From a virus, in IMG/VR virus record IMGVR_UViG_3300042475_000565, positions 1 through 25,373 of that record: a DNA stretch of 25,373 nucleotides; one strand, given 5' to 3'. Below are positions 4,045-25,252 of the stretch, piece by piece (position 1 is the first letter of the stretch; each line of letters opens with the position of its first letter). The position numbers and the translations under genes were made by a program. Under the pieces are notes generated by a model that was given only the letters and a program-made list of their open reading frames with translations, had not been told where the DNA came from and searched no databases.

Positions 4045-5880
4045 ATGAACAAAATCTCTTTGGATACTCGCGTGACGTTCCTGACGGCCGCTGATGGCGA
4101 TGCTGCCGCAGCGCCAAAGCGGTTTTCGATCGAAGCCTATACGGGTTCGCAGATCCGTCAGGGCTGGAGCCGTGAGCCTGTCGTGATCGATCTGGCCGGA
4201 ATGTCGTTCAAGCAGAAACTGCCGATCGTCTTGGGTCACGACTACAACCTTGGTTCCATCCTTGGGCAGACCGACAGTGTGCGGGTGGAAGCCGGCAAAT
4301 TGATCGTTGAAGGCGAGATATTGGCCGACAGCGATACGGCCCGCCAGGTGCTGGCGCTGGCAGAGCGTGGATATCAGTGGCAGGCCAGCGTGGGCGCCGA
4401 TGTGCGCCGCCATCAAAAAGTGGACGCCGAAGCCGCCACGACCGTCAACGGGCAGACCCATCTGGGTCCGGTCCGAATCGTCAAAGCCTCCAGTCTCCGT
4501 GAGGTTTCTTTTGTCACCCTTGGCGCTGACGCGGAGACAAGCGTCGCCATCGCGGCGGAAGCCGACGAGGAGATCACCATGGCGGATAACGCCAACCAGA
4601 CGCCTGCCGAGGAGCCCGTTGTGGCTGCTGCGGTGGAAGCCACGGCGAGCGCCGCCGTGGAGGCCCCCAAGGTCGAAGCCAGCGAGACCAACGGACTCAA
4701 GGCCCAGATCGAAATCCTTACCCAGAAAGTTGAAGCCATGCAGCAGTTGAACGCGACCCGTGACGAGCGCCCGGTTCCGCCGGCCGTCCACGTTGCGACG
4801 AAGACCGCCCCCACGGCGGAAGTGATTGAGGCGTCCTTTGCCCTTCAGGGCGGGCTGCCCAACGTCGAGAAGGCGTACAGCGCGCAGACGCTCGAGGCCG
4901 CTGCCCGCGTGCAGCGGAGCACGACGCTGGGTGAGGTGCTTCTGTCGGCCGCTGAGTCCAACGGTTATGACGGCCCGCGCCGCCTGACCGCTTCGACGCT
5001 GCGTCCGATTCTGGCGGCTGCGTGGGCTACCCACTCGATCGCCGGTATCCTGTCCAGCACCGTCAACAAGTTCCTCCTTGCCGGCTTCGACGGCGTGGAG
5101 TCTTCGTGGCGGTCGATTTCGGCGGTGCGCTCGGTCAACGACTTTAAGAGCGTGACCAGCTACCGGCTGAACGGCGGCTTCAAGTTCCAGCAAGTCGCCA
5201 ACGGCGGCGAACTCAAGAACGCTGCCGCTTCTGACGAGTCGCGGACGATCAGTGCCGACACCTACGGCATTATGACGAGCGTGACCCGTACGGACCTCAT
5301 CAACGACGACCTCGGCGCCCTGACCGCTGTTCCGCAGCGGATCGGCCGTGGCGGTGCGTTGAAGCTCAACGACGTGTTCTGGGCTGCGTTCCTTGACGAT
5401 TCGTCCTTCTTCACCACGGCCCGTGGCAACAAGAAGACGAGCGCCACGGCGCTGTCGATCGCCGGTCTGAAGGAAGCGGTCGGCCTGTTCCGCAAGTTGA
5501 CCGATCCCGATGGCAACCCCATCGCGGTTCGTCCCAGCGTGCTGGTGGTTCCGCCGGAACTGGAGATCACCGCGGCCGAGATCATGGGTTCTGCTCTGAT
5601 CCAGAGCGGTGCCACTGGCGGCCAGCCGTCTGCGAACGTGTTCGCGGGTCGGTATCAGGTGGTCGGCTCGGCCTACCTGACGAACGCGGCCGACTACTAC
5701 CTGCTTGCCTCGCCGGCTGACCTGCCGGTGATGGAAGTGGCGTTCCTTAACGGCGTGCAAAGCCCGATCGTGGAGACGGCGGAAGCCGACTTCAACACGC
5801 TCGGCGTGCAGATGCGGGGTTACTTCGACTTTGGCGTGGCCAAGGCCGAGTACCTCGGCGGCGTGAAGATGGACGTGTAG
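4045..5880 (+). CDS. Prohead protease / scaffold / major capsid fusion
   Basis: One 611-residue frame carries three head functions. Residues 1-175 resemble the phage prohead serine protease: LPIVLGHDYN with candidate catalytic His65, QWQASVGADV with Ser115, and LREVSFVTLGADAETSVAI with Glu153 as a possible third residue. Residues 179-250 are Ala/Glu-rich and end in a short coiled coil (217-235), as expected of a scaffold or delta domain. From about 255 to the end is an HK97-fold major capsid protein, with a capsid-like C-terminus VQMRGYFDFGVAKAEYLGGV. The protease presumably cleaves near the scaffold/capsid border during maturation. A strong internal start at 4579 could provide extra scaffold-capsid. 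Protease-capsid fusions are known in other phages. Confidence 0.88.
   Translation: MNKISLDTRVTFLTAADGDAAAAPKRFSIEAYTGSQIRQGWSREPVVIDLAGMSFKQKLPIVLGHDYNLGSILGQTDSVRVEAGKLIVEGEILADSDTARQVLALAERGYQWQASVGADVRRHQKVDAEAATTVNGQTHLGPVRIVKASSLREVSFVTLGADAETSVAIAAEADEEITMADNANQTPAEEPVVAAAVEATASAAVEAPKVEASETNGLKAQIEILTQKVEAMQQLNATRDERPVPPAVHVATKTAPTAEVIEASFALQGGLPNVEKAYSAQTLEAAARVQRSTTLGEVLLSAAESNGYDGPRRLTASTLRPILAAAWATHSIAGILSSTVNKFLLAGFDGVESSWRSISAVRSVNDFKSVTSYRLNGGFKFQQVANGGELKNAAASDESRTISADTYGIMTSVTRTDLINDDLGALTAVPQRIGRGGALKLNDVFWAAFLDDSSFFTTARGNKKTSATALSIAGLKEAVGLFRKLTDPDGNPIAVRPSVLVVPPELEITAAEIMGSALIQSGATGGQPSANVFAGRYQVVGSAYLTNAADYYLLASPADLPVMEVAFLNGVQSPIVETAEADFNTLGVQMRGYFDFGVAKAEYLGGVKMDV
4567..4581 (+). 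promoter_or_regulatory. Internal ribosome binding site and ATG in the capsid fusion gene
   Basis: GAGGAG at 4567-4572 is followed after six bases by an in-frame ATG at 4579 (codon 179). Initiation here would give a 433-residue scaffold-capsid protein without the protease. The junction falls exactly between the protease domain and the scaffold-like segment. Lambda uses a comparable internal start to make Nu3 from gene C. The spacing and position are seen directly; use of the site is inferred. Confidence 0.6.
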
Positions 5881-6367: not shown

Positions 6368-7057
6368 GTGTCCGACCTTCTCCAGACCGGTGCGGCGTGG
6401 CTAGCCAATCGGCTGGCGGATTCTGCGGCCAGCCTCTGCACCTACCACCGGGGAAACAGTTTTGCCCAGGTGCGTGCCACCGTCGGCAGTTCGACGTTTG
6501 AGGCGGCATCGCAATCCGGCGTCGTTGAAATCTGGCAGTCTCGGGACTTCATCGTTAAGGCATCCGAATTGCCGTTTGGCGAACCGCTGCGGCACGACAC
6601 GATCGTTGAGACGATTGGCGGCGTTGACCTGACGTATGAAGTGACGAGCCCTTCGGGGATGCCGGTGTTCCGGTATGCCGACCCGTTCCGCAATTGCGTG
6701 CGGGTCCACACGATCGCCACCGACAAGAGTTCCGCGGCGCTGCCCACGCTCAAGCAACGCTACTGGGGCGTTTCGGCTTTGGCGACCGTGACCGACCAGC
6801 AGATCGTTGCACTGTTTTCGAGCGACTTGGCTGGCGCCAACGGGCAGACTCGAACGCTCACGCCTGCTAGCCAGCACATCTATTTCGTTCTGCCGGCGTC
6901 GTTCGGCGCTGCGTCGTTCACAGTCAACGGGCTGTACACCTCTGCGTGGGAATCCACCACTAGATCAATCACGTTCCCGTCGCAGGCGGCCGCAAGCTAC
7001 ACGATCTACCGTTCGACCTATGCCATCACGGGCAATGCGAAGGTGGTGGTGTCGTGA
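6368..7057 (+). CDS. Head-closure-like protein with fibre-like C-terminal domain
   Basis: The GTG start at 6368 follows a strong GAGGTGA (6358-6364). Residues 1-120 resemble a phage neck protein found between the cement and tail-terminator genes: LLQTGAAWLANRL, an RGNSFAQVRATVG strand, QSRDFIVKASEL, then RYADPFRNCVRVHT. It probably acts as a head-completion or stopper protein. Residues from about 128 to 229 (YWGVSAL..., IYFVLPASFGAASFTVNGL, YTIYRSTYAITGNAKVVVS) match a beta-rich domain usually seen at the end of phage tail fibres. The join is in frame with no sign of a broken gene. The next gene is a fibre and overlaps it by four bases. The N-terminal assignment is from memory of gene order and motifs. 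Confidence 0.6.
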   Translation: MSDLLQTGAAWLANRLADSAASLCTYHRGNSFAQVRATVGSSTFEAASQSGVVEIWQSRDFIVKASELPFGEPLRHDTIVETIGGVDLTYEVTSPSGMPVFRYADPFRNCVRVHTIATDKSSAALPTLKQRYWGVSALATVTDQQIVALFSSDLAGANGQTRTLTPASQHIYFVLPASFGAASFTVNGLYTSAWESTTRSITFPSQAAASYTIYRSTYAITGNAKVVVS

Positions 7058-8040
7058 GCGAGATAAAAGGCACAAATGTCATCGGGCCGGTGGTGCCGTT
7101 TGACACGACGGACACGCACGCCAGCCATTTGGCGAAGTATGGCCAGGGCGGATACCGCACCGCGGCTGACACAGCTGAACGGGATGCGATCCCTGCCGCT
7201 AGGCGAGAAGCCGGGATGCTCGTCTATGTCACGGCAGCGAACACAATCTACAAGCTAGGCGTAGACCTGACGACGTGGGACGAGTTTGGCGGCCCAACTG
7301 GGCCAACGGGCTCGGTTGGTCAGCAAGGTGCAACAGGGGCCGCTGGTGTGGTTAGCGTTGCGGCTCCGCTCGTCAACAGCGGGACAAGCACAGCTGCATC
7401 ACTGAGTCTTGACTACGGCACGGGCTTTGGTGTGATCGATGGCAAGCTGATTCTGTTCGGCGTGCCGCAGTCCAGTATTTCGGGTTTGACGGATGCGCTG
7501 ACGGCAAAAGCGGCTGTTGGTCATACGCACGCACTTAGCGCGCTGACGCAGTCCAGCGCAACGACCGGCCAAGTGGCAGCATGGAACGGAACGGCATGGG
7601 CGCCGGCGGCACCGTCTTCCGGCGCAACCGGACCCACGGGAAGCGCTGGCGCTGCCTCGACAGTCACGGGACCGACAGGCCCTTCGGGCGCCACCGGTGC
7701 GGCCTCTAACGTAACCGGGCCTACGGGCGCAACTGGCGCGGCGGGCGCTGCATCCACTGTTACTGGGCCAACCGGCGCGACTGGTTCGGTTGGTGACGCT
7801 TCGACGGTGACGGGTCCAACGGGAGCGACAGGCCCAGCGTCCACCGTGACGGGGCCGACGGGCAGCCCAGGTTCCGCTGGCGGTCAAGGCGTGACGGGGC
7901 CTACGGGTCCAGCCGGAAGCGGTGATGGCGGCGGGTCATCGTCGGCCTCGGACCTGACGACCGGCACACTCGCAGATGCCCTGCTCTCCGACAAAGCACG
8001 CGCCGCCGCAAACATCTACCTCTGGAGCAACTTCCGATAA
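7054..8040 (+). CDS. Collagen-like tail fibre protein 1
   Basis: A 328-residue fibre starting at GTG 7054 inside GTGA. Residues 1-80 hold a conserved phage fibre domain (TDTHASHLAKYGQGGYR, AERDAIPAARREAGMLVYV, LTTWDEFGG). A short collagen stretch follows (80-98), then a beta region with a GHTH motif (156-159) of the kind found in trimeric fibre shafts, where His pairs can bind metal. Residues 190-290 are collagen-like G-x-y repeats dominated by GPT and GAT triplets and broken at intervals by AASTVT. The C-terminus ASDLTTGTLADALLSDKARAAANIYLWSNFR (read in two parts) is a typical fibre ending. It probably forms trimers and binds the cell surface. Confidence 0.82.
   Translation: MSEIKGTNVIGPVVPFDTTDTHASHLAKYGQGGYRTAADTAERDAIPAARREAGMLVYVTAANTIYKLGVDLTTWDEFGGPTGPTGSVGQQGATGAAGVVSVAAPLVNSGTSTAASLSLDYGTGFGVIDGKLILFGVPQSSISGLTDALTAKAAVGHTHALSALTQSSATTGQVAAWNGTAWAPAAPSSGATGPTGSAGAASTVTGPTGPSGATGAASNVTGPTGATGAAGAASTVTGPTGATGSVGDASTVTGPTGATGPASTVTGPTGSPGSAGGQGVTGPTGPAGSGDGGGSSSASDLTTGTLADALLSDKARAAANIYLWSNFR
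7621..7920 (+). repeat. Collagen-like repeat tract in fibre 1
   Basis: About 300 bases of related 30-36-base units encode G-P-T-G-A-T-G and the interruption A-A-S-T-V-T. Units differ mainly at third codon positions, which suggests selection on the protein. The second fibre at 9742-9996 carries similar units, so the two tracts could recombine. Confidence 0.75.
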
Positions 8041-8423
8041 TGGCAACGAACCCATCATTCGCCGCTACGCCGCGCATCGCGTCCGTCAACATCGCGACCG
8101 CGAACACGAACCGCGACGGCTCTGGCACAGTTGCCACGCTCATCACGGGAGTGGCGGCCGGGACTCGCGTGAGCGAGATCGTCATCAAGGCTCGCGTCAC
8201 AACGACTGCTGGACAGGTGCGCGTGTTTTTGTACGACGGGACAACATTCTTCCTGTTCGATGAAATCGCGGTCGCAGCGGCAACCGTGTCCGCGAGCGTG
8301 CAGGGTGTTCGGCAAAGCGTCAGCTACAACAATCTGATTCTTCCATCCTCGTCGTGGTCGGTGCGAGTCAGTACGCACAACGCAGAATCAATTGACGTAA
8401 CCGCTCTCGGGGCCGACTTGTGA
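8040..8423 (+). CDS. Phage tail beta-sandwich protein
   Basis: A 127-residue protein with no signal peptide or membrane segment. It resembles a widespread small virion protein: ATPRIASVNIATANTNRDG near the start, then VSEIVIKARVTTTAGQVRVFLYDG (read in two strands), and a WSVRVSTHNAESIDVTALGADL-like ending with the conserved STHNAE motif. Alternating hydrophobic strands suggest a jelly-roll or beta-sandwich. Its ATG overlaps the stop of fibre 1 by one base, and its stop overlaps the GTG of the next gene. Among adhesin genes it probably serves as a fibre tip or fibre-associated subunit. Its precise role is unknown. Confidence 0.65.
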   Translation: MATNPSFAATPRIASVNIATANTNRDGSGTVATLITGVAAGTRVSEIVIKARVTTTAGQVRVFLYDGTTFFLFDEIAVAAATVSASVQGVRQSVSYNNLILPSSSWSVRVSTHNAESIDVTALGADL

Positions 8424-9265
8424 ATACCGGCATTTATGGCCTCGGCGCGGCGACGGCGGCGGGTGGCCCGTTCGGCCTGAACGGCGTTCCGGCACCGGCG
8501 ACGGTTCGCGTCCTCGTATTGGCCGGTGGTGGCGGCGGGCAGACTTCCTCTGGAGCCGGTGGAGGAGGGGCAGGCGCGGGCGGGATGCTGGAGCAGTTCG
8601 TAAACGTCACACTTGGCACCGCGATAGCCGTCTCGGTCGGCGGCGGGGGCGCGGCGGCGTCTCGTGGCTCAAACAGTTTTTTCGGCGGCGTGATCTGTAT
8701 CGGCGGCGGTGGTGGCGCAAGCAACCTCATCTCCGCTGCTGGAGGCTCTGGGGCAGGAGGCACCACGACGACGGCGGCGGGGCCGATTGCCAGCCAGCAA
8801 GGCAACACGGGCGGCGCGGTCCAAGGCGGCGCGCGTGGCGGCGGCGGTGGCGGTGCTGGTGGGAACGGCAGCGCTGGGTCCGCGACTGGAGGTGGTGCCG
8901 GCGGGGCGGGCCGCGAGACATCAATCACGGGGGCTTCGCAGACACTGGCAGGCGGCGGCGGCGGCGGGCCGGCGTCAACTCAATCCACTGTCTCTGCTGG
9001 CGGGTCTGGTGGCGGCGGCGTAGGCGCGAGCAATGCGACCGTAGCAGGAGCGGGGCTGGCTGGCACCGGCGGCGGCGGCGGCGGCGGGTGCAACGTAGCG
9101 GGATTCACTGTCGGCGGTCAGGGCGGATCGGGCCTCATCGTGCTGCGCTACTCGTCGCTCCTGCAAGTCCGAATCGGCTCGGGACTCACCTACTCAATCG
9201 CGAGTGCGGGCGGCGATCAAATCGTCACGATCACGGCCGGCACCGACACGATCTCTTGGAGTTGA
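8420..9265 (+). CDS. Glycine-rich (polyglycine) tail protein
   Basis: Starts at GTG 8420 overlapping the previous stop. The 281 residues contain a short N-terminal beta segment ending TVRVLVLAGGGGG, then repeated Gly-rich blocks interleaved with hydrophobic strands (TAIAVSVGGGG, VICIGGGGG), and a closing GGSGLIVLRYSSL strand. This is the pattern of glycine-rich phage adhesins; in the Salmonella phage S16 adhesin such runs form stacked polyglycine-II helices that present receptor-binding loops. The last 40 residues (VRIGSGLTYSIAS..., IVTITAGTDTISWS) form a small beta domain. The gene contains GGC triplet runs at 8951-8965 and 9068-9085 that could change length in frame. It is probably a receptor-binding or fibre-tip protein. 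Confidence 0.72.
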   Translation: MNTGIYGLGAATAAGGPFGLNGVPAPATVRVLVLAGGGGGQTSSGAGGGGAGAGGMLEQFVNVTLGTAIAVSVGGGGAAASRGSNSFFGGVICIGGGGGASNLISAAGGSGAGGTTTTAAGPIASQQGNTGGAVQGGARGGGGGGAGGNGSAGSATGGGAGGAGRETSITGASQTLAGGGGGGPASTQSTVSAGGSGGGGVGASNATVAGAGLAGTGGGGGGGCNVAGFTVGGQGGSGLIVLRYSSLLQVRIGSGLTYSIASAGGDQIVTITAGTDTISWS

Positions 9266-9269
9266 GCAA

Positions 9270-9554
9270 ATGGCGCACTATGCCTTCGTGGATGAAAACA
9301 GTGTCGTGGTGGAGGTGATCGTCGGCAACGACGAAGGCGAAGGCACCGACTGGGAAGCGTACTACGCTGCTGTTCGCGGCCTGGCCTGTAAGCGAACGAG
9401 CTACAGCGCGAGAAACGGAATTAGCACGCGCACAGGCGGGCCGGGCTACAGAGGAAACTATGCGGGCATCGGCTACCGATTCGATCCGACAATCGGTCCA
9501 GACGGTGCGTTCCTTCCACCAGAGACACAGCCGGATCTCAATACCAACGTCTAG
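9270..9554 (+). CDS. Small phage tail or fibre protein
   Basis: A 95-residue protein, MAHYAFVDENSVVVEVIVGNDE... ending in RGNYAGIGYRFDPTIGPDGAF. The start with a beta hairpin and the GNYAGIGYxxD motif match a small protein family found among tail genes of marine and T4-like phages. A longer in-frame start exists at 9204 but would overlap the upstream gene by 62 bases. The ATG at 9270 has GGAG (9258-9261) at the right distance and gives the family-type MAHYAF start, so I prefer it. Function is unknown; position suggests a fibre component. Confidence 0.65.
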   Translation: MAHYAFVDENSVVVEVIVGNDEGEGTDWEAYYAAVRGLACKRTSYSARNGISTRTGGPGYRGNYAGIGYRFDPTIGPDGAFLPPETQPDLNTNV

Positions 9555-9563
9555 GATTCATCC

Positions 9564-10313
9564 ATGCCTTTCTATTCGCTGCCAACTGGTGGATCGCCTG
9601 TTCTCGCCGGCAACGGTGCGCCGACGGGCGGCATCGGAAACGTTGGTGACATCTACCTAGACAAGACAAACAAAGGGCTTTACGGTCCAAAGGACGCCGT
9701 CACTGGATGGGGCAGCCCTGTAGACGTTTCTTCCGGCCCTACCGGCAGCACGGGCAGCACTGGGCCAGCATCAACGGTAACCGGCCCGTCTGGCCCGCAG
9801 GGCAGCACAGGTGCCACGGGCAGCACGGGGGCTGCATCGACGGTAACCGGCCCGCAGGGCAGCACGGGACCGACAGGACCGGCGTCCGCAGTGACCGGCC
9901 CGCAGGGCAGCACAGGACCAACGGGCAGATCCGTGACCGGCGCCACGGGCAGGCAGGGACCGACCGGCCCGGCAGTGACCGGCCCTACGGGCGGATTCGG
10001 TCTTCCTCAAGCAATCAACGCACAGACCACAGGTTACACGCTGGCGTTTGCCGACGCCGGAAGTCTGGTGACCGTAGACGTTGCCACCGGTCCCGTCGAA
10101 GTCATCGTGCCGGCATCTGCTGACGTTGATTTTCCGACCGGCACGCACGTTGACATCGCGCGGCTCGGTACAGGCGCCGTGCAGGTAACTGGTGCAACTG
10201 GCGTGACCGTCAACGCCACGCCTGGCACAAAGCTGCGCGATCAGTATTCCGCAGGGACGGTGATCCTCTATGCAGCTGACACGTGGCTGCTGGTTGGAGA
10301 CGTTGACGCATGA
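9564..10313 (+). CDS. Collagen-like tail fibre protein 2
   Basis: A 249-residue fibre. Residues 1-50 contain a fibre-type [26 protein letters not shown] segment (read in two parts). Residues 58-145 are collagen-like with GPT, GST and GPQ triplets and the same ASTVT/ASAVT interruptions as fibre 1. The C-terminal 100 residues ([53 protein letters not shown]) form a beta-rich domain seen at the end of many phage fibres, likely a trimerisation or tip domain. Its stop overlaps the ATG of the next gene. It may be a second specificity fibre, or part of the same fibre complex. Confidence 0.78.
9742..9996 (+). repeat. Collagen-like repeat tract in fibre 2
   Basis: Repeated units encode G-P-A-S-T-V-T-G-P and G-P-Q-G-S-T-G, with near-identical DNA words such as ACCGGCCCGCAGGGCAGCAC at several places. 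Nucleotide similarity between units is higher than in the tract of fibre 1, suggesting more recent amplification. Confidence 0.7.
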
Positions 10314-11764
10314 GAGGCAAGGCCGGTCTGTTCAGCCGGTTTGTCGTTCCTGCCGTGATCGCGTTTGACGGTAGCGATGGCGATGCCATCAACGTCGGTG
10401 GCGGCACTCGCAGCGGCACCGTTACGTACACCGGCGCCGGCCACACCACTTCGCGCGTTTTCAAGCTTGCTGGCACCAGCGGTGGCGCAACGTTTGATTC
10501 GTCAGGCACCGGCCCGCTTGTCGTGACGCAGGCGTTCACCTACACGACAGGTGCCAAAACGCTGACGATGACAGGCTCGAACACAGGCGCCAACTCGGTG
10601 GGCGTAATCGCAAACGCCGGAGGCCAGCCAATTTCTGTGGTGAAGTCGGGAGCCGGAACGTGGCAATTCTCCGCAACCAGTTCTTACGCAGGACAGACAA
10701 CGATTCTTTCCGGCACGGCCTTGGCTGCAGACGATGCGCCGTCCGATGGGAATGGCGTATTTGGGTACTCGTCTAGCGGCGGCCTTGGTTCTGGCTCTGC
10801 TGTCACGGTCCTGGGAGACGACGCCGCAGACTCATCTGGGTCTGCATCGCTGCTGTTGGATCAAGGCGCGCTGTTCGGCCGCTTGGTAACTATCCCCGCG
10901 CTCGGCACGGGTGGCGTGCAGACGGTCATCGTGGGCGGCGCAAACACATCTGGCACGACACGGTTTCAGTCTGCCATGACGTTCTATGTGAACAGGGACG
11001 TTGTCCTGCGGGCTGCAACTGGCGGCACGTGCGAGTTTGCCAATGGCTGGCTCGGTGGCGTTCCTGGCGACGTGGGTGGCGTTGCCGCTTCAATTACGGT
11101 GGGCAGTTCTGGAAACACTGGCACCGTGTTGGTGTCAGGCAACCTCTCCACGTCTGGTGTTATCACGCTGGCTTATGGAACCTTGAAGGTTACCGGCACA
11201 ATCGCCAGCACGGATGAAATCGTTGTTGATGGGACGGGTGCTGTTCTGGTCTACAACGGGGCTGCGGAACTGTTGTCGTCATTGACGCTGACGCAAGGCA
11301 CGTTGTCCGGTTCCAGCGAAATCGCAACGGCCGTAACGGCTGGAGCGAATGCCACGCTTTCACCCGGCGATCCTGTCGGGTCGCAAGCGTTTTCAGCCGG
11401 CCTAACGCTTGCCAGTGGCGGCACCTATCGCTGGCAAATCAACAACTGGACGGGTTCTGCTGGCAGCGGCTTTGCCCAGCTGGTTGTGTCAGGCGATGAC
11501 CTGTCGATCACGGCCACCAGCGGCAGCACGTTCACGATCAAACTGGTTGGGCTGACTTCCGGCAACGTCTCCGGTGCCGTTCCCAACTTTGACAACACAA
11601 CATCGAAGTCGTTCACGATTGCCACGGCCGGTACGCTGGCAGGGTTCGCATCCAACAAGTTCACGATCGACGCCAGCGAGTTCACGAACAACAACGATTT
11701 GGATGGCGGCACGTGGACGCTGTCCGACTCTGGCGATGACATCGTTTTGACCTTCACGCCATGA
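10310..11764 (+). CDS. Beta-solenoid fibre with autotransporter-associated (PATR) repeat
   Basis: A 484-residue Gly/Ser/Thr-rich protein with long runs of short beta strands. Residues about 108-140 carry a recognisable passenger-associated repeat ([34 protein letters not shown]), the motif found in autotransporter passenger domains and abundant in Planctomycetes and Verrucomicrobia. Further solenoid-like segments run to about 360, and ATLSPGD...[11 protein letters not shown] plus the ending [13 protein letters not shown] also match the C-terminal region of such repeat proteins. There is no autotransporter barrel and no convincing signal peptide. Placed among fibre genes and overlapping both neighbours, it is best read as a phage fibre or adhesin that borrowed a cellular solenoid. 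Confidence 0.7.
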
Positions 11765-12834
11765 TCCAGCACCTAGCGGCATTGAGCGTCCACGCCTTCT
11801 ACGCAGGCGAATTGGACGCTGGCCGCCGGTCATGCGAACGGCTGCTGTCTCTGCCCGGTCTGCCGCAGGAAATGGAAATGCAGACTAGGGTGAACCGCAC
11901 GTTTTACACGCAGCCGCTGGAGGAACTGGCTGGGTGCCGTTTCGTTCGGCTTGACGTTGAGCCGGCGCAGCCCGGCTGGTCTTGCTTCAATCCGACGATT
12001 GCAGACTGCGGCGGCCTGGTCGCAGTGGTCCGCTCGAGCAACTACCGGATCGTGGATGGCAGATACGTGATGCCGCCGGAAGACGGCGACACAATCCGCA
12101 CGCAGAATCTTCTGGTTCGCCTGCGGCCCGATTTGACCGTGGCCGACTGTCGGCCGATAGCCGGGCCGGAGTACCACCGGACCGAGTATCCGGTTGAGGG
12201 GCTCGAGGACTGCCGGCTGCGGCAGACCCAAGCGGGTATAGGTGTTTCCGCCACGGTCCGCGATGCGGCGCCGCTCAACGGCGACTGCCGGATTGGGATT
12301 GCCGATCTGGACGTTGACCGTGCCGAGTTCACAGGCCTGCGAATGCTGGACTGCCTGTCGCTGCAGCAGCATGAAAAAAACTGGATGCCGCTACAGGGAT
12401 GCGATGGTTGGGTCTACGCCGTCAGCCACGCCGGCCACACGGTCACGGTGGACGCTGACCCGTCGCTGCGTGGTGCGTATCTGATGCACCGCCGGTCGCC
12501 GGCGCCGCAGATTGGCAGCCAGTTCCGTGGTGGCTCGCAGTTGGTGCAATTCCGTGGCGGATGGCTCGGGCTGATACACGAAGTGGCGCACGGCGGCCAC
12601 AGGGTCTACGAACACCGCTGGGTATGGCTGGACAATTCGCTAACGCTCAAGCGGTGGTCGCTGCCGTTCGCGTTTCGCGAACTGCGAACAATTGAGTTCG
12701 CCGCTGGTCTTGCGATCACCGGCAGCAGCGTAGTGGCGTCGTTTGGCGTGCGAGACGCCGAAGCGTGGCTTGTGGACCTCGATGCGGGTTCCGTTGAAGG
12801 GATGCTTGCGGATGCTGCACCAGCAGATCGCTGA
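11761..12834 (+). CDS. GH130/GH43-like five-bladed beta-propeller protein
   Basis: A 357-residue protein. Residues 1-55 look like a helical TPR-type segment (LSVHAFYAGELDAGRRSCERLL, read in two helices). From about 60 on it resembles a five-bladed propeller of the GH130/GH43 type: FNPTI (76-80), EGLEDCRL (146-153, compare the ED-[PC]-R motif of GH130), HEKNWMPL (204-211), FRGGSQ (255-260), LIHEV (271-275) and IEFAAGL (311-317). GH130 enzymes phosphorolyse or hydrolyse mannosides; relatives of this subtype often sit beside glycosyltransferases. It may therefore process or recognise a glycan. Catalytic competence cannot be judged by eye. It overlaps the PATR fibre by four bases and the next gene by 23. 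Confidence 0.6.
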   Translation: MIQHLAALSVHAFYAGELDAGRRSCERLLSLPGLPQEMEMQTRVNRTFYTQPLEELAGCRFVRLDVEPAQPGWSCFNPTIADCGGLVAVVRSSNYRIVDGRYVMPPEDGDTIRTQNLLVRLRPDLTVADCRPIAGPEYHRTEYPVEGLEDCRLRQTQAGIGVSATVRDAAPLNGDCRIGIADLDVDRAEFTGLRMLDCLSLQQHEKNWMPLQGCDGWVYAVSHAGHTVTVDADPSLRGAYLMHRRSPAPQIGSQFRGGSQLVQFRGGWLGLIHEVAHGGHRVYEHRWVWLDNSLTLKRWSLPFAFRELRTIEFAAGLAITGSSVVASFGVRDAEAWLVDLDAGSVEGMLADAAPADR

Positions 12835-13351
12835 CGCACTGGCGAGGGCATGGATGCCAAATGACTGGTTTGCGCTGGACGCACGGTCGCTGCGGCACTA
12901 CCAGCACAAGGCTGACGCCGTTGCAGCGATCCAGCCTAAGACCGGCATTGAGATCGGAACCCGCTGCGGGTACTCGCTGCTGGCGTTCCACGTGGCCAGC
13001 CCTGGCACGCGATGGCTGTGCGTGGACGGCTGGCTAGACGCTGATTCGCCGCAGTGCATGGACCACTGGCAGCGGATCGTGGCGGAATGGCGGATCAATG
13101 CCCAGCTGCTGCGGGCCGACACTCGAGGTGTAACGGAGTTGCCGCCTGCGGACTTCGCGCACGTGGACGGCGATCATTCCTACGCCGGCGCCCTGGCGGA
13201 TCTGCACTTGGTCGCTGACGTTCCGGCGATCCTGGCGGATGATTGCGACAACGCCAGCGTGCGCCGGGCCGTCGAAGACTTCTGCGCTAGCAGGAACAGG
13301 CGGGCCACGTTCACCGACGATGGCCTGCGGCAATCGGCACTGATCCTATGA
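12812..13351 (+). CDS. Class I SAM-dependent methyltransferase (Methyltransf_24-like)
   Basis: I place the start at ATG 12812 (179 residues): GAAGGGA at 12796-12802 lies nine bases before it, and an earlier in-frame ATG at 12743 would overlap the propeller gene by 92 bases. Motif I is IEIGTRCGYS (46-55), followed by an acidic strand end CVDGW (70-74) and the family signature FAHVDGDHSYAGALADLHL (115-133). This arrangement is common in small methyltransferases of polysaccharide and glycoprotein gene clusters. It would transfer a methyl group from SAM, plausibly to a sugar. The stop overlaps the glycosyltransferase ATG. The domain is compact but complete. Confidence 0.68.
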   Translation: MLHQQIADALARAWMPNDWFALDARSLRHYQHKADAVAAIQPKTGIEIGTRCGYSLLAFHVASPGTRWLCVDGWLDADSPQCMDHWQRIVAEWRINAQLLRADTRGVTELPPADFAHVDGDHSYAGALADLHLVADVPAILADDCDNASVRRAVEDFCASRNRRATFTDDGLRQSALIL

Positions 13352-14403
13352 GTCTGAAAATTGGCGTTTACGCGCTGGCACGCAACGAAGAAAAGCACGT
13401 CTTTGACTGGTCGCATTCGTGTGACGAAGCCGACGTGCGTGTTGTCACCGACACGGGATCGACTGATTCCACAGTTGATCGGCTGCGGCAGTCAGGCGTG
13501 ACGGTTGCCACAGGGAACGTCGTGCCGTGGCGCTGGGACGATGCCCACAACCTTTCGCTCTACCACCTGCCGTCCGACGTAGATGTGTGCCTCCGCTTGG
13601 ACCTAGACGAACGCTTGTCGCCCGGCTGGCGGGAAGTAATTGAACGCGAGTGGACGGACGGCACCAATCAACTTTTCTACAAATACGTTTGGTCATGGGC
13701 TTCCGATGGCACGGAAGACTTGGTGTTCATTGCGGACCGCATCCACTCGCGGCACGGGTTTCGCTGGTCGGCACCAACGCACGAAGGGCTGATCTGCTGG
13801 CATGGCGAGAAACGGTCAAAGCTGACCACGGATCTGCAGATTTTCCACTTTCGAGACAAGGGGAAAAAGCACACCACCGACCTAGAGTTGTTGCGAATCG
13901 CCGTGCGCGAGGCTCCGCACGACGCACGGGCGCAGTGGTATCTAGCACGCGAAATGGACTACGCCGGGATGCCAGAGGCACGGGAAGCCTTTGAGCGGTA
14001 TTTGCAGATGGACGGCGGCATAGCGACAGAACGCGCATTCGCCTGCCGCATCTTGTGGAAGCTGACCGGCGATCCGTCCTGGTTGGTGCGGGCGACTGCG
14101 GAAGCGCCAGACGAGCCAGAAGCGTGGGAGCGGCTGGCGTTCCTCGCCTATCGCCAACGGGACTGGGGCAAGGTCGTGGCACTGGCCCGCAATGCCGTTG
14201 AGCGGCAGAACATCGGCACGCATTGCAGCGATCCACAGTCGCGCACCAAAGCGATGGACCTGCTGGCAGTCGCTCTGTGGGAACTTGGGAGGCGTCCAGA
14301 GGCACTGACGTTCGCCCGGCAGGCTCTGGCAAGATGTCCGAAAGACGCCCGCCTGCGCTCAAACGTGGCGGCCATGGAACAGACGCTAGGAGGCGCGGCG
14401 TGA
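13348..14403 (+). CDS. Family 2 glycosyltransferase with C-terminal TPR repeats
   Basis: A 351-residue soluble enzyme. The N-terminal GT-A domain has LARNEEKHV (10-18), the DTGSTDST loop (35-42) and a DxD-type LRLDLDE (82-88) for metal and nucleotide-sugar binding. The middle part (WSAPTHEGL, LQIFHFRD) matches GT2 enzymes of the glycan and SunS-like groups. Residues from about 180 to 345 are helical pairs typical of TPR (AREAPHDARAQWYLAREMDY, AWERLAFLAYRQRDWGKVVA, GRRPEALTFARQALARCPKD), as in O-glycosyltransferases that grip a protein acceptor. It overlaps the methyltransferase upstream and the tail-terminator GTG downstream. It likely glycosylates a virion or host surface target. Confidence 0.78.
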   Translation: MSLKIGVYALARNEEKHVFDWSHSCDEADVRVVTDTGSTDSTVDRLRQSGVTVATGNVVPWRWDDAHNLSLYHLPSDVDVCLRLDLDERLSPGWREVIEREWTDGTNQLFYKYVWSWASDGTEDLVFIADRIHSRHGFRWSAPTHEGLICWHGEKRSKLTTDLQIFHFRDKGKKHTTDLELLRIAVREAPHDARAQWYLAREMDYAGMPEAREAFERYLQMDGGIATERAFACRILWKLTGDPSWLVRATAEAPDEPEAWERLAFLAYRQRDWGKVVALARNAVERQNIGTHCSDPQSRTKAMDLLAVALWELGRRPEALTFARQALARCPKDARLRSNVAAMEQTLGGAA

Positions 14404-14858
14404 GTAGTTATCTGCGGCAGATTGCCGACGCGCTAGCCACTAGCCTGGATGGCGTCACGTGGGCGATTCAGTCCACGACCGTGGAACGAAAGAACTGGGT
14501 CAGCATCGACGTGGAGTCGATGGCCAATCCGGTGGTCTACGTCACGCCTGGGTCCGCTGACGTGACCCGCATCGGACGCCGGCAGACGCAGGTGGACTAT
14601 GACGTGCAGGTGTTCGTTGGCAGACACGTCACGACCGATCAAGACGTTGACGGGATGCTCGATCTGGCAAACGACATCTTCCGCCAGGTGAAGGCCCACC
14701 AGTTTGATGATATCGAGGACTGGCCAGAGGGCGTAACGAGCCCGCAGACGGTCACGATCGACCTAAACCCTGACGATGCGTTGAGTGAGCGAAACGTCTG
14801 GCGGGCGGCGATTGTTGCCACCTATCGCGTCCTTGAAAGCGACGACCTGCCGGAGTGA
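14400..14858 (+). CDS. Tail terminator / tail completion-like protein
   Basis: I choose the GTG at 14400, preceded by a near-perfect AGGAGG (14388-14393), giving 152 residues; an upstream ATG at 14223 only extends the frame into the glycosyltransferase gene. The protein starts SSYLRQIADALATSL and has strands such as VDYDVQVFVGRHV and NVWRAAIVATYRVLE. The helix-strand pattern, size and position resemble phage tail-terminator (lambda gpU-like) or minor tail proteins, which cap the tail tube and join it to the neck. The next gene is gp10-like, which fits. The family was inferred from size and context more than from a diagnostic motif. Confidence 0.5.
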   Translation: MSSYLRQIADALATSLDGVTWAIQSTTVERKNWVSIDVESMANPVVYVTPGSADVTRIGRRQTQVDYDVQVFVGRHVTTDQDVDGMLDLANDIFRQVKAHQFDDIEDWPEGVTSPQTVTIDLNPDDALSERNVWRAAIVATYRVLESDDLPE

Positions 14859-15744: not shown

Positions 15745-16062
15745 ATGGCCATTACTCTCGGCAAGGACGTGACAATCGCTGGCGTCTCAAACGCTCGGTC
15801 TTGCACCGTCACGTCCAGCGCATCGGAAGTGGACGTTACCAAGCTTGGCGATTCGTCGCGCAAGTACCGCAAGGCGCTGATCGAGCAGACGATTGAGGTT
15901 GAATGCGTTGACGATCCCGGCGTCGAGGCTGGCGACGTGTTCACGATCACTGGCACCGAGACGGGAAACGCAGACTACATCTGCACAAGCGTTGCCCAGT
16001 CAGAGCCGCTTGACGGCATTGTGACGTACACGGTTTCCGGCTCTCGCACCGTTGCCGACTGA
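15745..16062 (+). CDS. Tail-tube-like protein, paralogue 1
   Basis: A 105-residue beta-rich protein beginning MAITLGKDVTIAGVSNARSC. It is the first of three adjacent genes that share the N-terminus MAITLGKD and similar length and strand pattern. The core includes ASEVDVTKLGDSSRKY, a pattern seen in major tail proteins where the strand before a DxTxxGD loop packs the tube, and it ends ITYTVSG-like (GIVTYTVSGSRTVAD). AAGGAG at 15728-15733 serves the ATG. The position before the tail chaperone is where the major tail protein belongs. I cannot tell which of the three is the main tube subunit. Confidence 0.6.
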   Translation: MAITLGKDVTIAGVSNARSCTVTSSASEVDVTKLGDSSRKYRKALIEQTIEVECVDDPGVEAGDVFTITGTETGNADYICTSVAQSEPLDGIVTYTVSGSRTVAD

Positions 16063-16066
16063 CAAG

Positions 16067-16089
16067 CACACACACACGCACCCACACAC
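16067..16089 (+). repeat. CA-rich simple repeat between tail-tube paralogues
   Basis: A run of CACACACACACGCACCCACACAC lies between paralogues 1 and 2, just before the AAGGAC ribosome binding site (16091-16096). A similar CA-rich string precedes paralogue 1 (15714-15740), so the leader seems to have been duplicated with the gene. Length changes would alter spacing upstream of the ribosome site, not the coding frame. Confidence 0.6.
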
Positions 16090-16101
16090 TAAGGACAGCA
16101 C

Positions 16102-16419
16102 ATGGCCATCACTCTCGGCAAGGACCAGACAGCGCCTCCGGTTGGCACGAACATCATTTCTGCCACCTACACCGAGGAATGCGAAACGATCGACATCAGC
16201 AACCGAGACAACATCGGCGGCAGCGCCGGGGACCCGGGCTACAAGATGTCCACGGCAGGGTTCACCACGAAGACGTGGGAGATTGAGTGCCACGACGCGA
16301 CCAGTTTGATTGCTGACCTTCAGGCAAACGCCAGTAGCGGTTGGAAGGTCATGAGCGTCACGGAGAACATCGGAGTTGACGGCGCCGTGACGTTTTCGGT
16401 GACTGCCAAGGAGTTCTGA
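16102..16419 (+). CDS. Tail-tube-like protein, paralogue 2
   Basis: A 105-residue protein with the same MAITLGKD start as its neighbours. The middle has TYTEECETIDISNRDNIGG, again a strand followed by a DISxxxN-type loop, then TKTWEIECHDATSLIADLQ and a final VTENIGVDGAVTFSVTAKEF. The pairing of a strand-helix-strand core with a terminal VTFSV strand suggests the same beta-barrel fold as paralogues 1 and 3. The ATG follows AAGGA by six bases. It may be a tube subunit or a specialised ring protein. Confidence 0.58.
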   Translation: MAITLGKDQTAPPVGTNIISATYTEECETIDISNRDNIGGSAGDPGYKMSTAGFTTKTWEIECHDATSLIADLQANASSGWKVMSVTENIGVDGAVTFSVTAKEF

Positions 16420-16422
16420 TCC

Positions 16423-16779
16423 TTGGCCATCACGCTCGGCAAAGACTGCACCGTTTCAGTTGGCAGCAACATTGTCAGCGCTCGCAGTGTGACGTTTACG
16501 GAGTCAGCGCGGACCATTGAAATAAACGAGTTTGGGTCGCGGTACTCGTCCGTCTATTCGACGGGCTTTGACGCATCTGTGTCCGTGGAACTAAACGACT
16601 CTGCGGATGCAACCGACTTGTTTGCGACGTTGGAAGACGGCGACGAAATCACGGTTTCCGGCGGCGCTGGCGGCTGGTCGTTTCCTGCTGTCGTCACGGG
16701 CATTTCAGAGACTTGCCCGGTAGACGGCGTGGCGACGTTCACGATTGAAGCGCGAATGACAAAAAGCGGGCTGCGATAA
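16423..16779 (+). CDS. Tail-tube-like protein, paralogue 3 (TTG start)
   Basis: The start is TTG at 16423, with AAGGAG (16408-16413) nine bases upstream. The rare start is supported because it yields MAITLGKD, as in the other two copies. The 118 residues include VTFTESARTIEINEFGSRYSS, strands FDASVSVELND, LFATLEDGDEITVSGG, and the end VDGVATFTIEARMTKSGLR. It is slightly longer than its paralogues at the C-terminus. Only three bases separate it from paralogue 2, so its ribosome site lies inside that gene. The weak start codon could keep this subunit at a lower dose, for example as a tube-end protein. Confidence 0.58.
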   Translation: MAITLGKDCTVSVGSNIVSARSVTFTESARTIEINEFGSRYSSVYSTGFDASVSVELNDSADATDLFATLEDGDEITVSGGAGGWSFPAVVTGISETCPVDGVATFTIEARMTKSGLR

Positions 16780-21066: not shown

Positions 21067-21596
21067 TGGCAGGCGACAACTACCGAATCGAAAAGGGCCA
21101 GCGTCTGTCCTCGGCCGTGTCTGCACGGGCGTGGAACCGGGCGCAGGATGCCGCCGACGTTGTGCTTGGGTCTGTCACTGGCTTTGATGCGGGGGACAGC
21201 ACGCCTGGTGCTCGAGCGGCGAACATCATCCTCCTACGGAACGACGCTGGCATTGTCGTGCCGCAATTTGGCGTCCTGCGTATTGGATCGCCAATCGTTC
21301 TGGGTGATCCAGAGAAGCCGTCGCAGTTCGGGCAGAACATGGTGCTAACCGGATTGATGCCTGACGGACTGTCGCCGTTCGCGGTTGCCATGGAGCCGAT
21401 TGAAGTTGGCAAGATCGGGCAATGTGCGATCGGCGGAAGATTTGCCTGCAAAGTTAAGGTTGTCACTGCTGGCCACAAATACGCACGCTCAAGGAACAAC
21501 GACGTAACGCAGCTGATCAGCACGGCGTGCGGCCCATTGCGGCTTGTGTGGTCGCAGGGTGTGGGTGACGACAAGTTCGCCGCTGGTGTTATGTGA
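21066..21596 (+). CDS. Conserved hypothetical tail-tip protein
   Basis: A 176-residue protein beginning MAGDNYRIEKGQRLSSAVSA, with AWNRAQDAADVVLG near the start, a VPQFGVLRIGSPIVLGDP strand set, and a C-terminal CGPLRLVWSQGVGDDKFAAGVM. I recall similar proteins among tail genes of GC-rich environmental and planctomycete phages, always without a known function. No enzymatic motif, signal or membrane segment is seen. The beta-rich, small character fits a structural tail-tip subunit. Its last bases overlap the GTG of the large tail-tip gene by four bases. Confidence 0.5.
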   Translation: MAGDNYRIEKGQRLSSAVSARAWNRAQDAADVVLGSVTGFDAGDSTPGARAANIILLRNDAGIVVPQFGVLRIGSPIVLGDPEKPSQFGQNMVLTGLMPDGLSPFAVAMEPIEVGKIGQCAIGGRFACKVKVVTAGHKYARSRNNDVTQLISTACGPLRLVWSQGVGDDKFAAGVM

Positions 21597-24500
21597 CTTG
21601 CACGTGCTGCGTATGCGCCGGGCTTCCGCTCACTCGTGGATTTGGCGGGCCTGTTTGGCTCAACGGCAGCGATCAAAACCTAGACTTCACCACAACAAAA
21701 CTGGTGACGTGGGCTGACGCTGGGGGCTCACTCCACAACGTTGTTGACGGCCACGGCCCTATTGAAATGCAGGGCCAGCCCGGCTGGGATTCTTTTGTTG
21801 ACGGCCGCTGGCTGTCAGGGTCTTCAGTCACGTTCACGAAACTGGACGGGCCTGGCCTATCGCTGGGAACGTTTCTGTTTCCGAGCGTGTGGACGATTGA
21901 TTACCCAGACAACGAAACACTATCGGCACTCCCGAAATCTGGTTCCGTTACGGCGTCGCTCTACGGCGTGTCGCTGGCGCTGTCCTACTCGCTGACGCTT
22001 AATCAACTAGATGCCTCTGTCAGCAATGCCGTCTACGTTGACAAGAGCGACAATGGCGACCCGCCGTTCACAGCGTCAGCGGTTATTGGCCAGCAAATCC
22101 AGTCACGCACGTTTACGCCAGCCGTCACCTTGCCGTCAGTCCTTGATATGTCTGCCAGTGTTGTTTCCAGCGATGGAACATCGCTGGAGGAATTCACGGA
22201 AAGGCCGCTTGATGGATTGAAGGATTTGCTGTGCTGGCGAGAGGTGTTCCCTGGCACTGATCAAGCCAAATGGAACCTGCAGCAGCAGCAACTTGGTGGC
22301 GCTGACCAATCGCCACCGATCACGTCTGGCTACACGATTTCCCACACGCTTGAATTCAATGGGGAACAAAGGCTGTTGTTGCCGGAAGGCGGCGGACCGC
22401 GCCCAGCGTGGCCGTATCCAGCGTCGCTGTCGTTTGTCTGCAGCGGTCAGCCAACAGACGAGGCACTGCCAACGTCTGGGTTCTGGACGGCGGCTGTGTT
22501 TCGTCCGACGCATTTGAACTGGGCTCGGCAGACGCACATTGACTACGACGTAACCGGACCAACAGGAACCGTCAGCCCGTACATCAAGGGGCGATTGGTA
22601 GGCATTGACCGTGGAAACACTGCCTACCAAGACGCCGGATCGGGAATGCTTTATTCGCTTTCGTGCAATGGCGTTGAGACGCTACCGCCAACCCAAGCAC
22701 CGACCAGGCAGCAACTGTTTGACGCGACCAGCGGCGAGGGATCGTACTTGGTAACAGTCACGCCGACTGGTTCTTACGGTTATCCAAGCACTGCAATTCC
22801 GACAAACAAGGATTTTTTTAGCTTCGTCATTGACAGGAAAAAGCCTGTCGTCGGATTTGCTCCCTTGGATGACATCTTTGCTCTCGGCGTCGTTCCTAAT
22901 AGCGTCCTTACGTCCACAAAACCGCTGGCGGCTCCAAACTGCCCAGACGAAGAATCAGCCGACGGCTTTTTGCCTAGGCCATTGTTTTTTGACGGCGTCA
23001 ATAACTTCTTGAAGCAGGATGGCGTCAACGCCACTACTCTTGGCGCAACGCCCGGCACTTACACGCTCCAAGCGTTTTCTGTTTCCCAGTGCCATGATTT
23101 TTCCGGCAACAATCCAGACCAATCGTTTTCGCAGTCATGGACGGTCCATGCCAAGCACGCAAACCACCGGCCGGAAAGTCAGGTTGGCGGGCACTCCTAC
23201 TACGGCGCCGTCCCAGCAATTGAGCAGCCTGGCCTGTTGACGCGCGAGTATTACCGCGCACGGTTGCAGTCAGAACAAATCACGTCGCTTAAGCTGACAT
23301 TTGATCGTCCGGTGGACGCCAGCACCGTGGACGCTTCGCAGGTAACGCTGCGGGCCAACGGCGTGCCAGTTGGCGGATGCACGATAGAGCAAGTTGACGC
23401 AACGACGCGCAACTGGCGTATCAACATTCCAGCAGGAGTTCAGAATTCGGCCACGTTCCTAATGCTTGAATATGACCCATCCGGCAACGTGATGACGGCT
23501 GACGTATTCCCAGAGGTTCACTATCCAACGAAAGACGACTTTCCAACAGATCCGCAGCGGATGGCGGAACTGTTCCGATTAGTCTTTATTTCCGACAACG
23601 ACAACAGACGTTATTCGGTTTCCGTCAATCCAGCCACTTTTGCGATTTCATACGTTGAGATAGCCGGCAACCCGCTGGACTGGAACGGCAATCCATATGA
23701 CCCAGAGCCGTCTGTGATTGCGGCCAGAGCCAGCTGGCTTATGGCGGACACTGGCGGCTGGCCCCGCATGATTGACACCAGTTCCGTGCTGCGCGGATTC
23801 GTTGTTGGGCGTGCCGCAAGCATCGGCGCAAGTTCGTCAATCAATATGCAGCAGAACGACTTGGCAATTTCGTCAAGCGGTGATATTGGGATTGCGGCAG
23901 AGTCTTCGCCTGGGCCGTTCAATTTTTTAGGGGCAACCGCTTTGCCTCCTGTGCAGCCGCAGCAGGATTTTATCGACTTTGGATTGGTCGCCACGGCCGT
24001 GAACTACGAAGGCTTTGTGCCTCGGGTTCCTGTCGCCGGAGCGACAGGGCCATTTTCCTACTGGGGCCTCGGCACGACGATTGATCCCAGCCCGCCAGCG
24101 CTGGTGTCACAGTGCGCCGGGCCGAGCGAGGCGCAGTGGCACAGTTCAGCAATCGTCTGCGCGACAGAAATCACGGAAGTCACGGCTCGAATTGTGCTGC
24201 TGGATGAAGACGGAAACGAAATACAACCGCCGGACGACGTTGGCGGGGCGTACTTCCAAGGAAAAGTTTTGTTCCCTGGCGGGCCGCTTGACAACACCAA
24301 CGCAATACCGGCGTGGACTGGTCCTGCACCTGGCGACTTCAACCACGTTGCGCGCGACCTGTTTCCGCGCATCATGTGCCTAGACAGCGAGCCGCCGCCG
24401 CCCGATATCAAGTTGGTTACCACCTTTCAAGCAGCTACGCTGTCGCAGAACGTGTGGGCCTGCGTCAATAGTGGTGGCGGCGCGGAAGTGGAAGCCGTTC

Positions 24501-25252
24501 CTGCGGCGACTAGAAACGCATTCTTTCTATCCGGCGACACATTCACGGAATCCAACCACTGGCTGGATGAGAGCCCGTATTTTCGGCTGCACTTCGACAG
24601 CGCGGAAAAAACGTTTGGTGATTCAGAGACGACCGAAGAACAGGCGAAAGACGGGCTGCGGTTTACCAAAGAGGAATTGCTGGTTGGTGGCCCGTTCCCG
24701 TTTGGAGAAACGGAACTGCAGCGGCGCATTCGCAGCGTGAAGTCTGCAACGTATTCGCTTGAAGGCGTCCAAGCAATGCTGTCCGTATGCCGGCAGGCGA
24801 AGACCTTTCCGGCGCTCAAGACGACGACGCTTGGTCCGCTTGTGTTGACGCTGTCATTTCGTGCGTGCATCAAAGCCGAAACGGAATACGAGGATTTCAG
24901 CGTCAAGCCTTCGGATCACGTGCGAGTGATGGGCGAAATAGATGGCTGGCCAAACGTCACACTGCAGGAAAACGTGACGTTCTCTGAAGCCATGGACTGG
25001 CTTATGGACAACAGAATTGCGTTGGATGCTGTAGCCAACACATGGAAAGTGCAGCCGTTTCGGTGGCTGATGTATTGCGAGAAAGACCAGTCTCTTGCCA
25101 CTCGAACGCTAACTGAACGGGTACTCAGCGATTACGCCTACACCCACACGCTGACGCCTGACCAAGAAGTGGCACTAGCCAACGGCGATGAAATCACGAT
25201 GCCGCTTGGTGGCGTGGATGGTGCGTACAGCGTCAAACTAAAGCGGAGCTAG
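21593..25252 (+). CDS. Large tail-tip/baseplate hub-like protein with Ig-like domain
   Basis: A 1219-residue protein from GTG 21593. It begins MTCTCCVCAGLPL, a CxCCxC cluster (Cys 3, 5, 6, 8) that could bind metal. The middle is mostly beta-rich, without family motifs I can name. Residues about 555-640 look like a bacterial Ig-like domain: ITSLKLTFDRPVDASTVDAS, QVTLRANGVPVGG, WRINIPAGV, FLMLEYDPSG. The C-terminal third (about 870-1219) includes VTARIVLLDEDGNEIQPPDD, SGDTFTESNHWLD and a long helical/strand region to SVKLKRS. Location after the tape measure and size suggest the central tail-tip protein or a receptor-binding platform. There are no visible enzymatic residues. It is the largest gene here. 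Confidence 0.5.
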   Translation: MTCTCCVCAGLPLTRGFGGPVWLNGSDQNLDFTTTKLVTWADAGGSLHNVVDGHGPIEMQGQPGWDSFVDGRWLSGSSVTFTKLDGPGLSLGTFLFPSVWTIDYPDNETLSALPKSGSVTASLYGVSLALSYSLTLNQLDASVSNAVYVDKSDNGDPPFTASAVIGQQIQSRTFTPAVTLPSVLDMSASVVSSDGTSLEEFTERPLDGLKDLLCWREVFPGTDQAKWNLQQQQLGGADQSPPITSGYTISHTLEFNGEQRLLLPEGGGPRPAWPYPASLSFVCSGQPTDEALPTSGFWTAAVFRPTHLNWARQTHIDYDVTGPTGTVSPYIKGRLVGIDRGNTAYQDAGSGMLYSLSCNGVETLPPTQAPTRQQLFDATSGEGSYLVTVTPTGSYGYPSTAIPTNKDFFSFVIDRKKPVVGFAPLDDIFALGVVPNSVLTSTKPLAAPNCPDEESADGFLPRPLFFDGVNNFLKQDGVNATTLGATPGTYTLQAFSVSQCHDFSGNNPDQSFSQSWTVHAKHANHRPESQVGGHSYYGAVPAIEQPGLLTREYYRARLQSEQITSLKLTFDRPVDASTVDASQVTLRANGVPVGGCTIEQVDATTRNWRINIPAGVQNSATFLMLEYDPSGNVMTADVFPEVHYPTKDDFPTDPQRMAELFRLVFISDNDNRRYSVSVNPATFAISYVEIAGNPLDWNGNPYDPEPSVIAARASWLMADTGGWPRMIDTSSVLRGFVVGRAASIGASSSINMQQNDLAISSSGDIGIAAESSPGPFNFLGATALPPVQPQQDFIDFGLVATAVNYEGFVPRVPVAGATGPFSYWGLGTTIDPSPPALVSQCAGPSEAQWHSSAIVCATEITEVTARIVLLDEDGNEIQPPDDVGGAYFQGKVLFPGGPLDNTNAIPAWTGPAPGDFNHVARDLFPRIMCLDSEPPPPDIKLVTTFQAATLSQNVWACVNSGGGAEVEAVPAATRNAFFLSGDTFTESNHWLDESPYFRLHFDSAEKTFGDSETTEEQAKDGLRFTKEELLVGGPFPFGETELQRRIRSVKSATYSLEGVQAMLSVCRQAKTFPALKTTTLGPLVLTLSFRACIKAETEYEDFSVKPSDHVRVMGEIDGWPNVTLQENVTFSEAMDWLMDNRIALDAVANTWKVQPFRWLMYCEKDQSLATRTLTERVLSDYAYTHTLTPDQEVALANGDEITMPLGGVDGAYSVKLKRS

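Follow-up and report, generated by a model that had tools for sequence, protein, structure and literature searches.

Fibres borne on the neck of a phage are already known. In the Anabaena myophage A-1(L), neck fibres made of gp82-gp81-gp80 sit on the neck protein gp5, a pentadecameric ring, and the authors found that the distal fibre module showed no binding to the host (PMC10966104). Neck fibres therefore need not be primary receptor binders. By analogy, A-1(L) offers the nearest solved example of fibres that an N-terminal domain suspends from a neck ring. Glycosylated collagen-like surface proteins are also known, among them BclA of the Bacillus anthracis exosporium (PMC6222408), whose glycan is O-methylated according to a work quoted in a later paper (Daubenspeck 2004, cited in PMC9614988), and the collagen of Mimivirus, which together with L230 gives glycosylated hydroxylysine (PMC9614988). 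Here we discuss a locus that may combine the two. The window is the complete IMG/VR record IMGVR_UViG_3300042475_000565 (25,373 bp), and the locus consists of nine genes (7054-14403) for fibres, adhesins, small proteins and glycan enzymes, preceded by the gene for the head-closure protein (stopper). To judge from the sequences, the new element is a C-terminal domain of the stopper, the dock, and its putative docking partner, the plug, at the N-terminus of the first fibre. No earlier description of this pair was found in a limited literature search.

The reading that we favour, and consider rather probable, is that of an ancestral neck-fibre locus. The stopper ring, lying between portal and terminator, would display docks around the neck. 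The stopper ring of lambda is a hexamer, and a similar stoichiometry may hold here. The plug at the base of the first fibre, whose gene overlaps the stop codon of the stopper gene, would seat in the dock, and collagen-like rods would hang from the neck. Pairs of a small protein and an adhesin, together with the PATR protein, by its sequence a probable beta-helix, would be exchangeable receptor-binding parts on these rods and may serve in host attachment. Three enzymes would add an O-methylated glycan to the threonines of the G-X-T collagen repeats.

The window has the gene order of a lambda/HK97-like siphophage: TerL, a gpW-like joiner, portal, a fusion of protease and major capsid protein (MCP), decoration protein and an FII-type stopper, then the nine genes, followed by terminator, a gp10-like gene, three tube-like genes, chaperone, tape measure and distal tail proteins. 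Gene order and domain matches thus confirm what an earlier note on this DNA had described, nine fibre, adhesin and glycan-enzyme genes between head closure and tail terminator. The stop/start contacts that it reported hold for most of the genes, with eight of ten junctions overlapping (seven by 1 or 4 nt, one by 23 nt) and two short gaps of 4 and 9 nt. The functional unit begins earlier than the range it gave, inside the closure gene, with the C-terminal 110 residues (6728-7057). A scan limited to consensus sites turned up nothing promoter- or terminator-like beyond chance level, and Rfam gave no match. Cultured phages yielded no match to the window by megablast or to the closure protein by tblastn, and no prophage relative was found in bacterial genomes scanned with the portal.

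The closure protein has two domains, separated by a low-confidence linker at residues 120-127 in an AlphaFold2 (AF2) model of pLDDT 81. Residues 2-119 match PF25138 (90.9 bits), and residues 1-120 match lambda gpFII (8xow; Foldseek E 4.4e-5, VIA Z 11.2; 8k37 also matched) as well as the stoppers of Chi (VIA Z 11.9) and R4C (Z 9.7). The fold and the position of the gene, between decoration/capsid and tail terminator, are both those of a lambda gpFII-type stopper. Modelled alone, the dock is a beta-sandwich (AF2 pLDDT 83.6, pTM 0.79). Neighbours of the whole closure model in BFVD include tail-fibre and collagen-repeat proteins, a match that is reported for the whole model and not for a residue range.

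Relatives were collected from IMG/VR by scans with the closure protein, the portal, the gp10-like protein and the glycosyltransferase (GT), which gave about 240 loci (L numbers below). Both borders of the site are held by 36 distinct uncultured loci, in which the interval was measured from the stopper domain to the terminator. Stoppers of the relatives are either about 229 amino acids (aa) long, with a dock, or about 121-143 aa, without one, and the dock occurs almost only where the next gene bears a plug. A plug directly follows the stopper in 74 of 77 non-redundant dock-bearing loci versus 0 of 16 dockless ones, and in the reverse direction every one of the 71 plug genes that could be tested is immediately preceded by a dock. 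On the stopper tree the stoppers with a dock cluster as a single group, and on the capsid and tail trees they are intermixed. On the capsid tree (75 rows) the dock switches at least five times, and the plug changes likewise in 4.8 of 5 independent pairs and never in the opposite sense (p 0.06, the minimum attainable with five pairs). The plug, in which 29 of 87 columns are invariant among 14 relatives, is found as a free protein of 88-126 aa or as the head of a fibre of up to 1307 aa. In fibre 1 it forms the conserved N-terminal base, is followed by collagen repeats, and would have an attaching role. Nine of 11 dockless sites start with a collagen gene of another conserved N-terminus, which perhaps represents a second type of anchoring. 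This N-terminus reads MPTQKRVDQLP...TKR or MATKKISQL...VQGGVTKR (L176, L177, L187, L213 and others).

The pair is not confined to this family. When dock and plug were searched separately by tblastn against cultured phages, several records were in common. A dock profile made from the window's family only was run on 293 open reading frames (ORFs) from 15 regions of unrelated phages. Most regions were chosen by a plug match, and four by a dock match in a record that also bears a plug; what the test chiefly examines is therefore the gene upstream of a plug. In each of the top nine ORFs (E 8e-13 to 0.02) the dock is C-terminal or nearly so, and for eight of them the next gene bears a plug (SJC03_81, DAC19_87, Tunturi_5 gp28, Bennett gp146, pVp-1 gp075, D93_0034, and two in LR756502). 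Dock matches in CKB-S2 (E 0.06) and Sen-NF (E 1.1) were too weak to count. K380, which was included because of its upstream protein rather than a plug, again has the dock/plug pair, the dock being significant only with an iterated profile. Because the pair occurs in unrelated phages, linkage within the window's family cannot explain the dock-plug junction. Tentatively, dock and plug may be a portable fibre-attachment pair of unrelated tailed phages, grafted in this freshwater group onto the stopper ring that gates the genome, with exchangeable, glycosylated collagen fibres borne directly at the neck. The proposal of the earlier note that the products attach at the neck or collar gains support from the coupling of plug to dock and from this recurrence; the attachment itself we infer.

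Two further observations concern the form of the pair. The 642-kb phage LR756502.1 carries its two dock/plug gene pairs consecutively (L380:11392-19246), and these might form a chain of fibre segments. One protein combining dock and plug was suggested by phrog_10818, which spans both genes of Vibrio phage Bennett, and was rejected, K380 having a two-gene pair instead; the search for fusions gave no significant dock or plug match in K437a, Saratov-12 or the 1576-aa pVco-7 protein.

The trio beside the terminator (a mannosyltransferase-like propeller, a methyltransferase and a GT2-TPR protein) probably glycosylates threonine-rich collagen. By tblastn, the first of these matches phage proteins annotated as beta-mannosyltransferase (DSL-LC02, E 4e-15; S-SCSM2R, 2e-14; DSL-LC01, 1e-9), and its propeller fold is putative. 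GT and propeller-type gene are present at 21 of the 36 sites, most with the methyltransferase too. Among collagen triplets, 53% end in T and 22% are GPT at GT-positive sites (n=1972), versus 33% and 5% at the 15 GT-negative sites (n=242), and the N-terminal domain of collagen 2 is found at 20 of 21 GT sites versus 0 of 15 others; since the GT-negative sites are essentially one clade, with few independent events, these comparisons are weakened, which counts against the proposed link. A collagen comparison for loci without GT was dropped because many such loci end before the GT position. GT homologues come after GPT-rich collagens in two independent records, DSL-LC01 and MT838491, and in DSL-LC02 the genes next to the mannosyltransferase homologue encode a collagen and FkbM methyltransferases. 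The collagens of the locus are almost lysine-free, and threonine would therefore be the acceptor.

Several findings weigh against docking at the neck. Dock-bearing stoppers without a neighbouring plug occur in L148, L157 and L333; dock and plug lie about 3.6 kb apart in MT835639; and no dock was found directly upstream of the plugs of Yoloswag, JA29, Tandem and phi18:2. Searches of the PDB gave no clear fold relative for the dock (best Z 5.4), which is no proof of a new fold. Neighbouring genes also travel together, so that linkage could account for some of the coupling seen within the family. The dock might then be no more than an accessory part of the stopper, with the fibres attached at the tail tip or shaft and the gene neighbourhood reflecting linkage and shared recombination borders. 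The three stoppers without a plug neighbour suit this explanation, as does the co-transfer of adjacent genes seen between L234 and L222, which are 87-98% identical from the capsid end through decoration, stopper, dock and enzyme trio to the GT and only 53-79% from the terminator onward; the border of the locus is therefore a border of head/tail recombination too. We nevertheless regard it as unlikely, the same junction being present in unrelated phages whose upstream protein is no recognised stopper. Attachment to the capsid, as head fibres like phi29 gp8.5 or SPP1 gp12, appears very unlikely. The locus is close to the decoration gene and SPP1 gp12 is a collagen-like capsid protein, but the fibre-coupled domain is fused to the stopper and not to the capsid or decoration protein. 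For the glycan enzymes, an action on the host envelope in place of the virion, to mask receptors or exclude superinfection, has to be considered, since phage glycosyltransferases often target host envelope glycans or DNA, and the GT homologues of PaBG, Lu11 and HRDY3 have no collagen nearby. Such a role is rather unlikely for enzymes whose genes overlap at their starts within a late structural operon and always lie at the edge of the site, and whose homologues adjoin Thr-rich collagens in unrelated records.

The earlier note had also raised the capture of a mobile host-range cassette between the head and tail modules. The highly variable content of the site, and edges that coincide with recombination breakpoints, would be in keeping with a cassette. 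None of the 36 sites is empty, however: all hold 3.5-10.6 kb, and their products fall into about 120 protein clusters, of which most occur in few phages. The border at the 3' end is constant: in 28 of 28 non-redundant GT loci the terminator lies directly downstream of the GT, and the propeller-type gene upstream of it. In L158, with a portal and an MCP that share only 52-55% identity with those of the window, the 127-aa protein, the propeller-type protein and the GT are kept in the same order. A captured cassette or moron was rejected on the absence of empty sites and on the fixed edge, is largely refuted, and can be given hardly any credence. From the occupancy, the conserved order and the constant terminator it follows that the site is a permanently occupied fibre locus; sequence comparison indicates that it is old, hypervariable and ancestral to a large group, so that the word "inserted" is misleading. 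Of the synteny pattern that the note had associated with a cassette, the empty sites are missing and the different gene sets in relatives are present. Its opposite case, an ancestral layout with the same nine genes diverging equally, applies as to ancestry and fails as to content, since the interior is replaced piecewise.

This piecewise exchange is clearest against the closest relatives of the window, in which long flanks are mostly 93-97% identical in DNA and three stretches have no detectable match. These are 7280-7521, in fibre 1 just beyond the plug; about 8000-9223 (from 9064 in one relative), which takes in the 127-aa protein and the greater part of the Gly-rich adhesin; and 10665-11282, the centre of the PATR protein. 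The swaps between close relatives thus start just beyond the plug and are confined to fibre and adhesin parts. The N-terminal ~225 aa of the Gly-rich adhesin are replaced in close relatives, with the last 53 aa retained at 60% identity; L006 has an unrelated 109-aa protein in place of the 127-aa protein, and further relatives have different small-protein/adhesin pairs. The small proteins fall into several families, between which no convincing alignment was obtained. A fused small protein and adhesin in L002 and L004 proved to be a gene-calling artefact. The sites of L148 and L157 are short (3.5-3.7 kb); their first genes encode a 126-aa protein and a fibre of 635-795 aa.

Table. Features of the neck-fibre locus and its borders, with the matches on which each assignment is based
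Feature	Position	Strand	Evidence
Stopper domain, lambda gpFII type, of head-closure gene	6368..6730	+	PF25138, AF2, Foldseek, VIA
Dock, ~110-aa C-terminal beta-sandwich of stopper	6728..7057	+	229-aa stoppers; AF2; homologues in unrelated phages
Plug, ~87-aa N-terminal domain of collagen-like fibre 1	7054..7314	+	Conservation; dock upstream
Collagen-like fibre 1	7054..8040	+	GTG start, overlaps stopper by 4 nt; phrog_5073 tail fibre, E 2e-16; 23 GXY triplets
Small 127-aa partner of adhesin	8040..8423	+	Relatives in L158, L207, L209
Gly-rich adhesin	8420..9265	+	PF21722, 58 bits
94-aa protein	9270..9554	+	phrog_7759
Collagen-like fibre 2	9564..10313	+	22 GXY triplets
PATR/beta-strand-repeat protein	10310..11764	+	PF12951, 27.1 bits; TIGR02601, E 2.4e-8
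Probable glycan enzyme, propeller-type, like phage 'beta-mannosyltransferase'	11761..12834	+	tblastn
Methyltransf_24 methyltransferase	12812..13351	+	PF13578, 38.1 bits
GT2-type glycosyltransferase with C-terminal TPRs	13348..14403	+	phrog_13126 (beta-1,4-glycosyltransferase), E 3.5e-78; TPR Pfam matches
Tail terminator, fixed 3' border of locus	14400..14858	+	Borders site in 36/36 relatives

Outside the locus, the head maturation protease and the major capsid protein are fused in one 611-aa protein (4045-5880; phrog_4523, E 6e-68). Three tandem tail-tube-like genes (15745-16779) each start with (M/L)AITLGKD, and the trio is present in nearly all relatives that cover the region; the tube, or caps, may be built from all three paralogues. 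A 1219-aa distal tail protein (21593-25252) matches no Pfam or PHROG family significantly. It differs strongly even among relatives that are otherwise almost identical (e.g. L089) and is a candidate for a second host-range determinant.

An uncultured freshwater phage group thus probably wears fibres at the neck and not solely at the tail tip, and these are perhaps sugar-coated. If this is true, part of the host-range variation of a widespread group sits at the neck, and phage glycosyltransferases are tied to a concrete substrate, threonine-rich collagen fibres. A C-terminal dock followed by an N-terminal plug would be a signature predicting the virion site of many unassigned fibres, and it would apply to cultured Vibrio and Bacteroides phages, in which it can be tested now.

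Among known systems, the stoppers of lambda (gpFII) and R4C equal residues 1-120 of the closure protein in fold and gene position; their chains in solved structures have 102-114 aa and are without a C-terminal dock. To our knowledge, no fibre genes adjoin gpFII in lambda. The T4 whiskers (fibritin, wac) and the XM1 collar spikes (gp40) are fibrous collar appendages, as proposed here, but as described they sit on a collar disk that encircles the neck, with no stopper dock domain (PMC10491603). The fibritin family is not among the window's Pfam or PHROG matches, which come from profile scans only. BclA and the Mimivirus collagen offer an analogy for glycosylated collagen-like surface proteins, with hydroxylysine as the Mimivirus acceptor where the window would use threonine. 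Bacteroides SJC03_81/82, Vibrio pVp-1 gp075/076 and Tunturi_5 gp28/29 share with the window a C-terminal dock followed by the N-terminal plug of the next gene; unlike in the window, the upstream protein is no recognised stopper, and Tunturi_5 alone has a function given in its record, 'tail fiber protein'. In A-1(L), the N-terminal domain of a base protein anchors a modular multi-gene fibre to a neck ring, much as we propose for the window, which is known from its genes alone; no dock or plug was seen in its description (PMC10966104). The anchor of that myophage is a separate ring, gp5, and its fibre genes gp80-82 lie apart (PMC10966104), whereas the predicted anchor of the window forms part of the stopper itself, and its fibres are collagen-like, the first of them encoded by a gene that overlaps that of the stopper.

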